Shown here: in pieces, positions 5,413-8,021 of the stretch | How the letters are laid out: every line of letters begins with the position of its first letter | How positions within the stretch are numbered: position 1 is the first letter of the stretch | Source: Chitinophagales bacterium | GTDB lineage: Bacteria; Bacteroidota; Bacteroidia; Chitinophagales; UBA2359 | Assembly: GCA_020629335.1 (NCBI GenBank) | Contig: JAHDDN010000160.1 | Location: 1 to 10,867, forward strand | DNA: 10,867 bases | Reading direction: 5' to 3' | Notes under the pieces: model-generated | Told to the model about the DNA's origin: nothing | Database searches by the model: none | The model's input: the letters and a program-made list of their open reading frames with translations, nothing else | Translations under genes and position numbers: made by a program

Positions 5413-5642
5413 GGGCGTGCCCATGCGTTAGCAAAGGCGAGTGCGAAGCACAAGCAAATTAATCATTTATCATTACATATTATGCATTCGCCGAAGGCGC
5501 ATGGTCGGGCTATCCGTTCTTATGTGGCTATGGACTGGCTATTCCGCTAAGGCGTACTTGTCTGCCTTGCAGGCCAGCCTGCGTCCACCTAAGCTCCATA
5601 AGCCAGCCCATTGACGCCACATACCACTACTATCCCTCACGC
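5413..5642 (+). repeat. structured spacer element, copy A (variable hairpin plus conserved module)
   Basis: The element starts GGGCGTGCC (5413-5421). Next comes a two-part hairpin: CCATGCG (5421-5427) with CGCATGG (5498-5504), and inside it GGCGAGTGC (5436-5444) with GCATTCGCC (5484-5492). The conserved module GGTCGGGCTATCCG... (5503-5642) follows. It matches copy B near 7803-7942, inverted, at about 80% by eye without gaps over about 140 nt. The module can fold as an outer stem TATGTGGC (5521-5528)/GCCACATA (5616-5623), an inner stem CTGGCT/AGCCAG, and two hairpins, AAGGC/GCCTT (5549-5568) and GCAGG/CCTGC (5569-5582). It has no ATG-started ORF shared with copy B. Class unknown: structured RNA, REP/MITE-like DNA, or both. 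Confidence 0.75.
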
Positions 5643-5655
5643 ATCCTAACAATCG

Positions 5656-5687
5656 TTTGTGCAAAGTCCCCAAAAAGCCTATCTTTG
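5656..5687 (+). promoter_or_regulatory. probable thrS promoter (Bacteroidota type)
   Basis: TTTG (5656-5659), 20 nt, then TATCTTTG (5680-5687). Both boxes and the spacing fit the Bacteroidota consensus exactly. Transcription would begin near 5694 and give thrS a leader of about 180 nt containing two hairpins. The -7 box overlaps a small CCCAAA (5669-5674)/TTTGGG (5684-5689) inverted repeat, so a chance match cannot be excluded. Confidence 0.55.
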
Positions 5688-5763
5688 GGCTTGATTTCAA
5701 AGCAACTATAAATATACCCATAGCATACTTGCGTCTCATGAACAAATCGCTTGTATAAAAAAT

Positions 5764-5797
5764 GTAGGGGCGCCCCTTGTGATCGCCCGCAAGGGGG
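5764..5797. repeat. GC-rich leader hairpin (GTAGGGGCGC...)
   Basis: CCCCTTG (5773-5779) pairs perfectly with CAAGGGG (5790-5796) around a 10-nt loop. Just upstream, GGGGCGCCCC (5767-5776) is a competing self-complementary block. The 10-mer GTAGGGGCGC at its start also occurs, reverse-complemented, in the loop of the large hairpin of repeat copy B. It lies in the predicted thrS leader but looks like mobile spacer repeat material. Confidence 0.55.
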
Positions 5798-5824
5798 ATA
5801 GAAATCAACACATTTTTTGAAACG

Positions 5825-5858
5825 AAGGAGTGATTGAATTCGTAGTTAATCACTCCTT
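5825..5858 (+). promoter_or_regulatory. candidate ThrRS-binding operator hairpin in the thrS leader
   Basis: AAGGAGTGATT (5825-5835) is perfectly complementary to AATCACTCCTT (5848-5858), giving an 11-bp stem with a 12-nt loop. The loop contains TTCGTAG: U33-like T, then CGT, then a purine. That is the layout of a tRNA-Thr(CGU) anticodon loop. CGT lies at -35 to -33 relative to the thrS ATG. In E. coli, ThrRS represses thrS translation by binding a leader hairpin that mimics the tRNA-Thr anticodon arm, with CGU in its loop about 31-33 nt upstream of the start. The similarity of position and loop is seen directly; function is inferred. The alternative is a repeat-family hairpin or an unrelated leader structure. 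Confidence 0.5.
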
Positions 5859-5875
5859 AAAATTGACAAAACAAA

Positions 5876-7801
5876 ATGATTAACATTACATTCCCAGATG
5901 GAAACGTAAGGCAGTACGAAGCAGGAACAACTGCTATGGAAATCGCCAAGTCTATCAGTCATGGACTGGCCAAAAAAGTAATTTCAGCAAAAGTTGATGG
6001 TGAAGTGTGGGATGCCACCCGCCCCTTGACCACCGATAGCACCTTACAATTACTAACCTGGGATGATAAAGATGGAAAAGCGACCTTTTGGCACTCTTCT
6101 GCCCACTTAATGGCAGAAGCCTTAGAAGCACTCTACCCCGGTGTAAAGTTTGGAACAGGCCCTTCTATTGAAGGCGGATTCTATTATGATGTGGATTTAG
6201 GCGAAGTTAGTCTCTCTGTAGAAGACTTCCCTAAAATCGAAAAAAAGATGAAAGAATTAGCCAGTCAGAAGAATGATTACGTAAGAAGTGATAAGTCTAA
6301 AGCAGAAGCAATCGCATTCTTCCAAGAAAAAGGCGACCCATTCAAACTCGAACTCCTAGAAGGGTTAGAGGATGGAGACATCACCTTCTATCAACAAGGC
6401 GATTTTGTGGATCTTTGTAAAGGGCCACATATTCCTAATACTGGCGCTATTAAAGCATTTAAATTACTCAATGTAGCAGGAGCTTACTGGAGAGGAGACG
6501 AAGGTAATCCTCAAATGACCCGTATTTACGGAGTCGCATTCCCTAAAGCTTCCATGTTAGAGGAACATTTAGAAATGTTAGAAGAAGCCAAAAAGAGAGA
6601 TCACCGTAAATTAGGTGCGCAACTCAAATTATTTGCTTTTTCTGATAAAGTAGGGGCAGGGCTCCCACTTTGGTTGCCTAAAGGCACCATCGTGAGAGAT
6701 ACGCTTCAAGAGTTCTTAAAAGAAGAACAACTAAAAAGAGGCTATCAATTGGTAATGAGCCCTCATATTGGTAAGAAAGAACTATATGTTACTTCTGGCC
6801 ACTATGAGAAGTATGGAGAAGATTCATTCCAACCCATCAAAACACCAAAGCAAGACGAGGAATTCTTACTAAAGCCGATGAACTGTCCTCACCACTGTGA
6901 GATTTACAAAACATCTCCTTATTCTTATAAGGAATTACCCATTCGTTTGGCAGAGTTTGGAACGGTTTATCGCTATGAGCAAAGTGGAGAGCTACATGGT
7001 TTATCAAGAGTGAGAGGCTTTACGCAAGATGATGCACATATCTTCTGTATGCCAGAGCAACTAAAAGAAGAATTCCAAAACGTAATCGACTTAGTATCAA
7101 TGGTATTCACCAAATTGGGCTTTGCTGATTATACCGCTCAAATCTCTTTACGTGACCCAGATGATAAGTCTAAATACATCGGTTCAGACGAAAATTGGGA
7201 GAAAGCAGAGAATGCAATTATCGAAGCAACTCAAGAAAAAGGTATAAAAACCGTGACAGAATACGGTGAAGCAGCCTTTTATGGCCCGAAATTGGATTTC
7301 ATGGTAAAGGATGCCCTTAATCGTTCTTGGCAATTAGGTACTATCCAAGTAGATTACAACTTACCAGAGCGTTTTAATCTCGAATATGTTGGTGCAGATA
7401 ATGAAAAACACCGACCAGTGATGATTCACCGTGCGCCATTTGGCTCCATGGAGCGTTTCATCTCTATCTTGATTGAAAACTGTGCAGGTAACTTCCCAAC
7501 TTGGTTAGCACCACAGCAAATATCAGTCTTGACGATTAGTGATAAGTTCTTACCTTATGCAGAAGAAGTACTTAAAAAGCTACAAGCTTTAAAAATACGT
7601 GCGGCGATTGACTACAGAAATGAAAAAATCGGTCGTAAGATTCGGGATGCAGAGGTGAATAAGGTACCTTATATGCTAATTATTGGGGAAAAAGAGATTG
7701 AAAATAAGGAAGTAGCGGTCAGAAAGCACCGAGAAGGAGACAAAGGAAGTGTCAGCTTAGATGCCTTCCTAGAAACCTTCAATGCGGATGTGAATGGCTA
7801 A
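5876..7801 (+). CDS. thrS: threonyl-tRNA synthetase
   Basis: Cytoplasmic class II synthetase that charges tRNA-Thr with threonine. The 641 residues match the full-length bacterial enzyme (E. coli 642). Domains in order: TGS (about 1-62); editing domain with H73xxxH77 and C181xxxH185, which removes mischarged serine; catalytic core (about 245-535) with motif 2 around FGTVYRYEQSGE (361-372) and motif 3 around APFGSMERF (520-528); C-terminal anticodon-binding domain (about 545-641). The zinc ligands that select threonine are present (C337, H388, H518). Of the E. coli anticodon-contacting residues, N575, E600 and R609 have counterparts N582, E607 and R616; R589 is replaced by K596. The ATG at 5876 gives the expected TGS start (MINITFPDGN). 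infC follows after a spacer expanded by repeat copy B. The leader hairpin at 5825-5858 suggests autoregulation. Confidence 0.99.
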   Translation: MINITFPDGNVRQYEAGTTAMEIAKSISHGLAKKVISAKVDGEVWDATRPLTTDSTLQLLTWDDKDGKATFWHSSAHLMAEALEALYPGVKFGTGPSIEGGFYYDVDLGEVSLSVEDFPKIEKKMKELASQKNDYVRSDKSKAEAIAFFQEKGDPFKLELLEGLEDGDITFYQQGDFVDLCKGPHIPNTGAIKAFKLLNVAGAYWRGDEGNPQMTRIYGVAFPKASMLEEHLEMLEEAKKRDHRKLGAQLKLFAFSDKVGAGLPLWLPKGTIVRDTLQEFLKEEQLKRGYQLVMSPHIGKKELYVTSGHYEKYGEDSFQPIKTPKQDEEFLLKPMNCPHHCEIYKTSPYSYKELPIRLAEFGTVYRYEQSGELHGLSRVRGFTQDDAHIFCMPEQLKEEFQNVIDLVSMVFTKLGFADYTAQISLRDPDDKSKYIGSDENWEKAENAIIEATQEKGIKTVTEYGEAAFYGPKLDFMVKDALNRSWQLGTIQVDYNLPERFNLEYVGADNEKHRPVMIHRAPFGSMERFISILIENCAGNFPTWLAPQQISVLTISDKFLPYAEEVLKKLQALKIRAAIDYRNEKIGRKIRDAEVNKVPYMLIIGEKEIENKEVAVRKHREGDKGSVSLDAFLETFNADVNG

Positions 7802-7802
7802 T

Positions 7803-8021
7803 GGCTTAGGGATGGAAGCGGTATATGGCGTACATGGCCTGACTTACATAGCTTAGGTAGCCGCAGGCTGGCCTGAAAGGCAGACAAGGATGCCTTAGCG
7901 AAGTAGGAAGGACATAGCCATATAAGAGCGGACAGCCCGACCTTTTTTAATTTTTCATCGGAGGGCACACAGATAGGTAGCGCCCCTACGGTCCGATGAA
8001 AAATTAAAAAAGGGAAGCCCC
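7803..8021 (-). repeat. structured spacer element, copy B (inverted relative to copy A)
   Basis: Read on the minus strand it has the same plan as copy A. GGGGCTTCCC (8021-8012) leads into a perfect 22-bp inverted repeat (8013-7992 with 7962-7941) enclosing 29 nt, then GGTCGGGCTGTCCG and the conserved module down to about 7803. The hairpin has no sequence similarity to that of copy A, while the module is about 80% identical. The outer module stem is TATATGGC/GCCATATA (+ strand 7917-7924 and 7822-7829). It differs from copy A by a compensatory A-T for G-C change. AAGGCA/TGCCTT is also kept. The module begins directly at the thrS stop codon, where AATGGCT is tandemly duplicated (7793-7806). No T-run follows the hairpin, so a thrS terminator is not supported. 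Confidence 0.75.

Follow-up and report, generated by a model that had tools for sequence, protein, structure and literature searches.

Flavo-1 (Rfam RF01705) is the closest described relative of the element considered here. Since 2010 it has counted as an orphan family of structured RNA (PMC2864571). Rfam classes it as a small RNA (sRNA) gene family, and searches of the open-licence literature on Flavo-1, on RAYT/REPIN and palindromic repeats in Bacteroidetes, on Flavobacterium repeats and on gene conversion of stem-loop repeats found no description of an exchangeable Flavo-1 hairpin. Contig JAHDDN010000160.1 of a Chitinophagales bacterium, analysed over its positions 1 to 10,867 (the window, 10,867 nucleotides long), carries two copies, A and B, of a larger element. 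Judged by its base pairing, each copy has three arms: P1, which is a closing stem of 5 bp, the hairpin P2 and the structured arm P3. On balance we consider it probable that the copies belong to a dispersed, strand-specific Bacteroidota element in which a scaffold of P1 and P3 stays fixed at its site and the P2 slot is refilled as a unit from other copies.

A repeat search of the window finds a 142-nt inverted pair, 5503–5644 and 7801–7942, which is 80% complementary and 2156 nt apart. The local alignment of copies A and B scores 85, with a maximum of 18 over 300 shuffles. The hairpins of the two copies align with a score of 7, below the shuffle maximum of 13, and are thus unrelated. The hairpin of copy A consists of CCATGCG/CGCATGG (7 bp) followed by GGCGAGTGC/GCATTCGCC (9 bp, one G-T) and a 39-nt loop, and that of copy B has a loop of 29 nt on a stem of 22 perfect base pairs, CCTTTTTTAATTTTTCATCGGA. 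The first-pass annotation, which had described two inverted copies with a shared module of about 140 bp at about 80% identity and unrelated hairpins of these dimensions, is borne out on these points. It also gave the order of the parts correctly, but the GGGC border that it drew is one half of the P1 stem, which it overlooked, and its orientation has to be reversed: the folded strand is the complement (minus for A, plus for B). Counted on that strand, the common fold of A and B has 41 consensus pairs, 34 of them unchanged, seven compensatory and none one-sided or broken.

Hundreds of further copies are found in two draft genomes of one genus, G001 and G301, both genus-mates of the window. The 14-nt core GGTCGGGCTNTNCG, with at most one mismatch, has 409 matches in G001 (199 + 210), and its reversed control has eight (5 + 3). 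A stricter pattern gives 335 matches in G001 (161 + 174) and 467 in G301 (233 + 234) with none in the control; such regular-expression counts miss copies with unusual ends. A core of 16 nt, which is stricter, is matched at least once in 92 of 296 genomes of the phylum and in 87 of 198 genomes of the order, the largest counts being 467 (G301), 335 (G001), 124 (G327) and 52 (G376). Core matches in four other genomes reached via thrS are at control level, and phage and plasmid collections contain no match to the copy A module. An ordinary segmental duplication, which the first-pass annotation had tied to there being only two copies or to homologues with one and the same hairpin, is ruled out by the unrelated hairpins of A and B and the hundreds of copies in relatives; unrelated hairpins are also found at orthologous sites.

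In G001, the parts of the element follow in the order GGGCGTG[T/C]CC, hairpin, GGTCGGGCTATCCG, a module of ~125 nt and TATCCCTCACGC. The G001 sample comprises 61 contigs (780 kb, including locus L001, which is described below) with 101 core matches. Parsing started from 109 core matches in G001 and 106 in G301, of which 94 and 97 have a recognised 3′ end and 87 and 89 have both ends; after removal of duplicates, the parsed sets hold 87 and 88 copies. All five P1 pairs form in 87 of 87 G001 copies and in 87 of 88 G301 copies (435/435 and 439/440 pairs) with the 5′ end picked blind to the 3′ end, and shuffling the 3′ ends among copies yields at most 416/435 and 421/440. Five or more pair types contribute, among them GCGTG/CACGC, GCGCA/TGCGC, GCGTA/TACGC, GCATG/CATGC and GTGTG/CACAC. 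Since the outer five bases pair in the parsed copies, the element is read as one three-armed unit. The same pairing bears on the idea that hairpins were linked to the wrong modules during short-read assembly, through the core that all copies share. Both drafts are fragmented, contigs often end inside the element, and a contig end is close to 15 of the 109 copies and to 11 of the 106. However, the P1 strands stand on opposite sides of the supposed join and match in all pairs but one, so chimeric assembly does not explain the joins; in addition, the two modules of the strongest cases described below share only ~14 nt beside the hairpin. We regard an assembly artefact as very improbable.

P3 shows many two-sided changes among 92 aligned copies. 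On the strand on which Flavo-1 is defined, single mismatches in P2 stems are G-U or U-G in 62 cases and A-C or C-A in 12, as counted in folds with G-U pairs switched off, which treats both kinds alike, and the fold of the module alignment on this strand has 94 G-U against nine A-C. This excess points to selection on one folded strand, either RNA or single-stranded DNA.

A strand-specific fold could belong to a cis-acting regulatory RNA, an attenuator or a terminator of neighbouring genes. Copy B is on the sense strand and starts 2 nt beyond the stop codon of thrS, which would fit this explanation, as would the Rfam class of Flavo-1. Yet the orientation relative to genes is not consistent: between tandem genes of G001 the folded strand is sense in 17 cases and antisense in 21 (65 of 91 copies resolved with simple open reading frame calls). 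Furthermore, no terminator-like site is called at copy A or B, and in Flavobacterium psychrophilum, Flavo-1 matches lie sense or antisense to transcribed regions alike and many are untranscribed (PMC9723704). The flanking of thrS by the two copies, to which the first-pass annotation drew attention, is seen in the window (copy A lies before the gene and copy B directly after it) but looks incidental, because the copies of L001 lie outside the spacers next to thrS. L001 is the nearest thrS relative found (80 loci; 72% identity over the best segment; genome G001); it has copies at 3827, 8079 and 10552, thrS at 5099–7018 and no copy in the spacers directly beside the gene. Cis-regulation is quite improbable as the explanation of the element.

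The hairpin and the module of the element are largely uncoupled. The 91 G001 copies fall into 54 hairpin clusters, the largest with 26 members, and module distance is 0.199 within hairpin families and 0.195 between them, inside the permutation range. In Mantel tests, hairpin and module give r 0.023 in G001 (P 0.21, n 78) and r 0.010 in G301 (P 0.37, n 63), and the outer and inner parts of the module give r 0.366 and 0.439, respectively (P 0.001). When the G001 module is divided into five segments, eight of the ten segment pairs show a correlation (P ≤ 0.017) and the other two show none, and the hairpin correlates significantly with none of the five (r −0.025 to 0.033). Of 75 variable module columns, only two are associated with hairpin type at P < 0.05; associations are seen instead at the closing pair, at position 8 and in P1. 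Many hairpin families on one scaffold, statistically uncoupled from it in both genomes, uphold the two-part family proposed in the first-pass annotation, in which a hairpin that is exchanged or has an evolution of its own sits on a fixed scaffold. In 780 kb of G001, a search for hairpins off the scaffold gave two of 438 matches outside the mask, both of them scaffold copies on inspection. The idea that the hairpins are independent genome repeats captured by the scaffold is thus unsupported in these 780 kb.

The same hairpin recurs on different scaffolds. One of the module classes in G301 is divergent and contains relatives of the window module. Among its 14 copies whose hairpin is 30 nt or longer, 10 have a hairpin relative at 70% identity or more on a class-1 copy (shuffled control, none). 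In the best case (L380/L280), the hairpins are 94% and the modules 52% identical; in L383/L279, a 109-nt hairpin is 87% and the module 57% identical. Across G001, 233 same-hairpin pairs (45 copies) have a module identity of 0.78, with 0.76 for random pairs, and across G301, 49 such pairs (50 copies) have 0.71, with 0.72 for random pairs. The flanks outside the element are 0.44 identical in same-hairpin pairs and 0.42–0.44 in random ones. P1 type differs in 56 of the 233 and nine of the 49 pairs, and P1 pairs within each copy. Hairpins that are 75–94% identical on strongly different P3 arms favour the view that the hairpin has been exchanged and is not merely fast-evolving.

Orthologous sites of G001 and G301 give a second view of the slot. 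From 26 flank pieces, 16 usable loci were obtained, of which 13 have a copy in the same spacer, two have none and one ends before the site. With four sites added by direct contig comparison, 17 sites are occupied in both genomes; the direct-comparison pairs were picked where both genomes have a copy, and single-genome sites are outside this count. Relative to the surrounding block, the two copies have the same orientation at 15 sites and opposite orientations at two (L119 near 2554 and L323 near 1847; L117 near 7821 and L316 near 2679), in each case within one orthologous spacer. At the two sites without the element (L317 and L319), spacer similarity is lost, so that neither an insertion boundary nor a target duplication can be read. 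The orthologous hairpins (15 comparable pairs) have a mean identity of 0.37, with 0.39 when shuffled, and the highest value is 57% (L143/L318), where the outer stem type is shared. At four sites, module identity ranks with the top 8% of random pairs (0.90, 0.89, 0.88 and 0.85), and the hairpins are unrelated all the same. In L173/L300, the modules are 90% identical and both P1 stems are GCGCA/TGCGC, but a 63-nt hairpin in one copy is matched by five bases in the other, and the change is bounded by the hairpin-closing CC and GG. That the slot can be nearly empty in other copies escaped the first-pass annotation.

Degenerate CAATCATTCAATCACTC/TGATTGGGTGATTGG repeats are common in the flanks of 85 G001 copies, and the 3′ flank is often rich in A. 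TAGGGGCG stands in the loop of copy B, and pieces resembling it are present in the flanks of G001 copies. A 140-nt flank piece of L141 (query 2986–3081) has ~26 further places in G301 at 72–83%, which belong to another repeat or a paralogue family.

The sequence itself shows the architecture, the covarying pairs in P1 and in P3, which strand folds, that P2 has lost its linkage to P3 within a genome, and that orthologous sites carry different hairpins. For the process behind them we propose that P1 and P3 would form the scaffold that sits at a genomic site, and that the P2 hairpin would be replaced as a unit by hairpins of other copies, joined at the hairpin base. P1 pairing is kept though its strands flank both P2 and P3, so a replacement must leave P1 in place. 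The new hairpin may be copied from another copy via the short sequence shared at the hairpin base, by template switching or a hairpin-directed activity instead of ordinary RecA gene conversion. The elements would then behave as selfish or structural repeats of the kind known as repetitive extragenic palindromic (REP) sequences and not as cis-regulators of a neighbouring gene.

Several observations weigh against a fixed scaffold with a freely refilled P2 slot. The modules at orthologous sites have a mean identity of 0.782, against 0.767 when shuffled (P 0.09); P3 therefore also turns over at these sites, and P2 is not the sole part replaced. The nearest module neighbour belongs to the same hairpin family in 15 of 48 copies, where ~7.6 are expected, and the hairpin interior (core) of G001 correlates with the module at r 0.048 (P 0.049), so the uncoupling is incomplete. 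There is also a weak link between P1 and P2 (r 0.10, P 0.03). On the strand chosen in the first-pass annotation, RNAalifold pairs include 97 G-U and 60 A-C, 89 of the 97 G-U coming from one near-invariant column pair. Finally, the large samples rest on the two drafts of one genus, and no copying agent was found with the Y1_Tnp and SbcD profiles.

RecA-dependent gene conversion among several hundred repeats, i.e. concerted evolution, would shuffle hairpins and modules as a by-product and give the hairpin base no special role. The copies are numerous and similar enough for it, and the hairpin pools are partly genome-specific: the mean share of other copies with a relative at 75% identity or more is 9.3% within G001, 2.9% within G301 and 1.6% between the two. 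Position 8 is mostly T in G001 (78/95) and mostly C in G301 (54/77), as homogenisation would leave it. Nevertheless, the stretch shared on the P1 side is only ~GGGCGTGYCC and the flanks beyond it are non-homologous. With only ~10 nt common to the sites on that side, RecA conversion becomes less likely. The same-hairpin pairs with different P1 types would, moreover, require joins within 2–4 nt or a later change of P1. Overall, we find this explanation rather unlikely. A stronger form of the replacement proposed above is cassette exchange, in which a trans-acting activity would copy stem-loops among hundreds of docking scaffolds fixed in the chromosome and would cut and join them where the hairpin begins and ends. 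We put it forward tentatively, as possible and short of probable; if it holds, the conserved slots of a genome hold a set of hairpins that is particular to this genome and keeps evolving.

A Y1/HuH transposase (TnpA-REP, RAYT subclass 2.6, Bacteroidetes) could have spread a REP-like element whose hairpins are recognition structures, and the dispersed, extragenic and strand-specific copies agree with this. Against it, Y1_Tnp (PF01797) is present in 19 of 22 genomes with 3–24 pattern matches and in 16 of 20 with none, and the two richest genomes, both drafts, have no match (G001) and one weak 27-bit match (G301). The replication-strand bias of a lagging-strand single-stranded DNA transposon (IS200/IS605 type) is not found in G211, where Flavo-1 matches split into 9 plus/9 minus versus 14/9 by replichore (Fisher P 0.54), the replichores of this one genome being set from 20 sampled GC-skew windows. 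Runs of like strand along the chromosome reach P 0.07 in G211 and are absent from G175 and G062. Spread by a Y1/HuH transposase is improbable. Break repair triggered by SbcCD at long palindromes was also considered and is weakened: SbcD (TIGR00619) passes its cut-off in two of ten genomes (G327 and G376) and stays below it in the drafts of G001 and G301, with 27–30 bit matches only. The lack of a recognised SbcD in these two drafts may aid the persistence of long hairpins.

Judged by their sequence, copies A and B are relatives of Flavo-1 and represent a long variant of it. The Flavo-1 test suggested in the first-pass annotation succeeds for related loci and falls short for the window: copy B matches RF01705 with 24.1 bits (E 0.18), below the gathering score of 42, and copy A has no match at E ≤ 1. 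The long form gives none at E ≤ 1 in L001, L114 and L116, and no match at E ≤ 0.001 is found among the candidates scored in G001 (150 of 857) and G301 (150 of 1201). Forty core loci in other Bacteroidota agree with the element in their ends and core; in many of them P3 is shorter and P2 is reduced to a few bases. Of 15 such short-form loci, 12 match RF01705, eight of them above the cut-off with up to 67.6 bits, and L233, L248 and L250 have no match. L252 and L238 are short-form copies with a long or unusual P2 or P3 and lie below the cut-off. The element shares with the cut-off-passing loci the strand, the core (reverse complement of GGTCGGGCT[AT]TCCGCT) and the irregular base of P3, and these loci in turn carry P1-type ends of the element. 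Unlike the element, the Rfam model comprises 76 positions of P3 only, without P1 and P2. This suggests that what the Flavo-1 model captures is a single arm of a larger element with three arms, another of which is replaceable.

Coordinates in the window of the parts of copies A and B and of the gene between them
Feature	Position	Strand	Remarks
Copy A, whole element	5413..5642	-	Folded strand minus, 5642 -> 5413
Copy A, P1 closing stem, 5′ strand	5638..5642	-	Pairs with 5415-5419; read from sequence; P1 covaries among the copies of G001 and G301
Copy A, P1 closing stem, 3′ strand	5415..5419	-	GCGTG/CACGC
Copy A, P2 exchangeable hairpin (7+9 bp, 39-nt loop)	5421..5504	-	
Copy A, core GGTCGGGCTATCCG (5503-5516 on plus) and Flavo-1-related P3 arm	5503..5637	-	
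Copy B, whole element	7803..8019	+	Folded strand plus; start 2 nt past thrS stop codon
Copy B, P1 closing stem, 5′ strand GGCTT	7803..7807	+	Pairs with AAGCC 8015-8019
Copy B, P1 closing stem, 3′ strand AAGCC	8015..8019	+	Read from sequence
Copy B, P3 arm	7808..7942	+	Inside weak Rfam Flavo-1 match 7799-7946
Copy B, P2 exchangeable hairpin (22-bp perfect stem, 29-nt loop)	7941..8013	+	
thrS, neighbour outside the element	5876..7801	+	Pfam tRNA-synt_2b, HGTP_anticodon, tRNA_SAD, TGS

By Pfam, the genes of the window encode a protein that has leucine-rich repeats and a secretion tail, another one without a Pfam match, threonyl-tRNA synthetase, IF-3, PrmA and triosephosphate isomerase. A search for relatives through the 479-residue upstream protein gave 32 pattern matches, none of them confirmed as a relative. 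Eleven spaced direct repeats of 66 nt (2200–3029) correspond to the leucine-rich repeats of the protein, whose secretion tail is of type IX. Before thrS, at 5757–5825, a GTAGGGGCG...CGCCC repeat lies within a AAAAAATGT/ACATTTTTT hairpin, and the window ends in a tandem repeat of the heptamer TAGTTCA (10813–10867).

If hairpin replacement is active, these repeats would evolve combinatorially in a way that resequencing can follow directly, and the junction at the hairpin base would be a handle for finding the responsible activity. Hairpins of such repeats are unfit for inferring the ancestry of the element around them. Among known systems, integron attC sites are DNA that folds strand-specifically, keeps its ends conserved and varies in its terminal structure. 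The element resembles them in all three respects, but no array or open reading frame cassettes are seen with it (an integron integrase was not searched for). Like REPs and REPINs with TnpA-REP (RAYT), it is extragenic, dispersed, present in high copy number and forms strand-specific imperfect hairpins; unlike them, it is three-armed, ~200–230 nt long and has an exchangeable arm, and no association with Y1_Tnp is seen. The BOX elements of Streptococcus pneumoniae are modular dispersed repeats in which the number of one internal module varies. The element described here is likewise modular and dispersed with a variable internal part, but, unlike in BOX, unrelated hairpins occupy one and the same slot.

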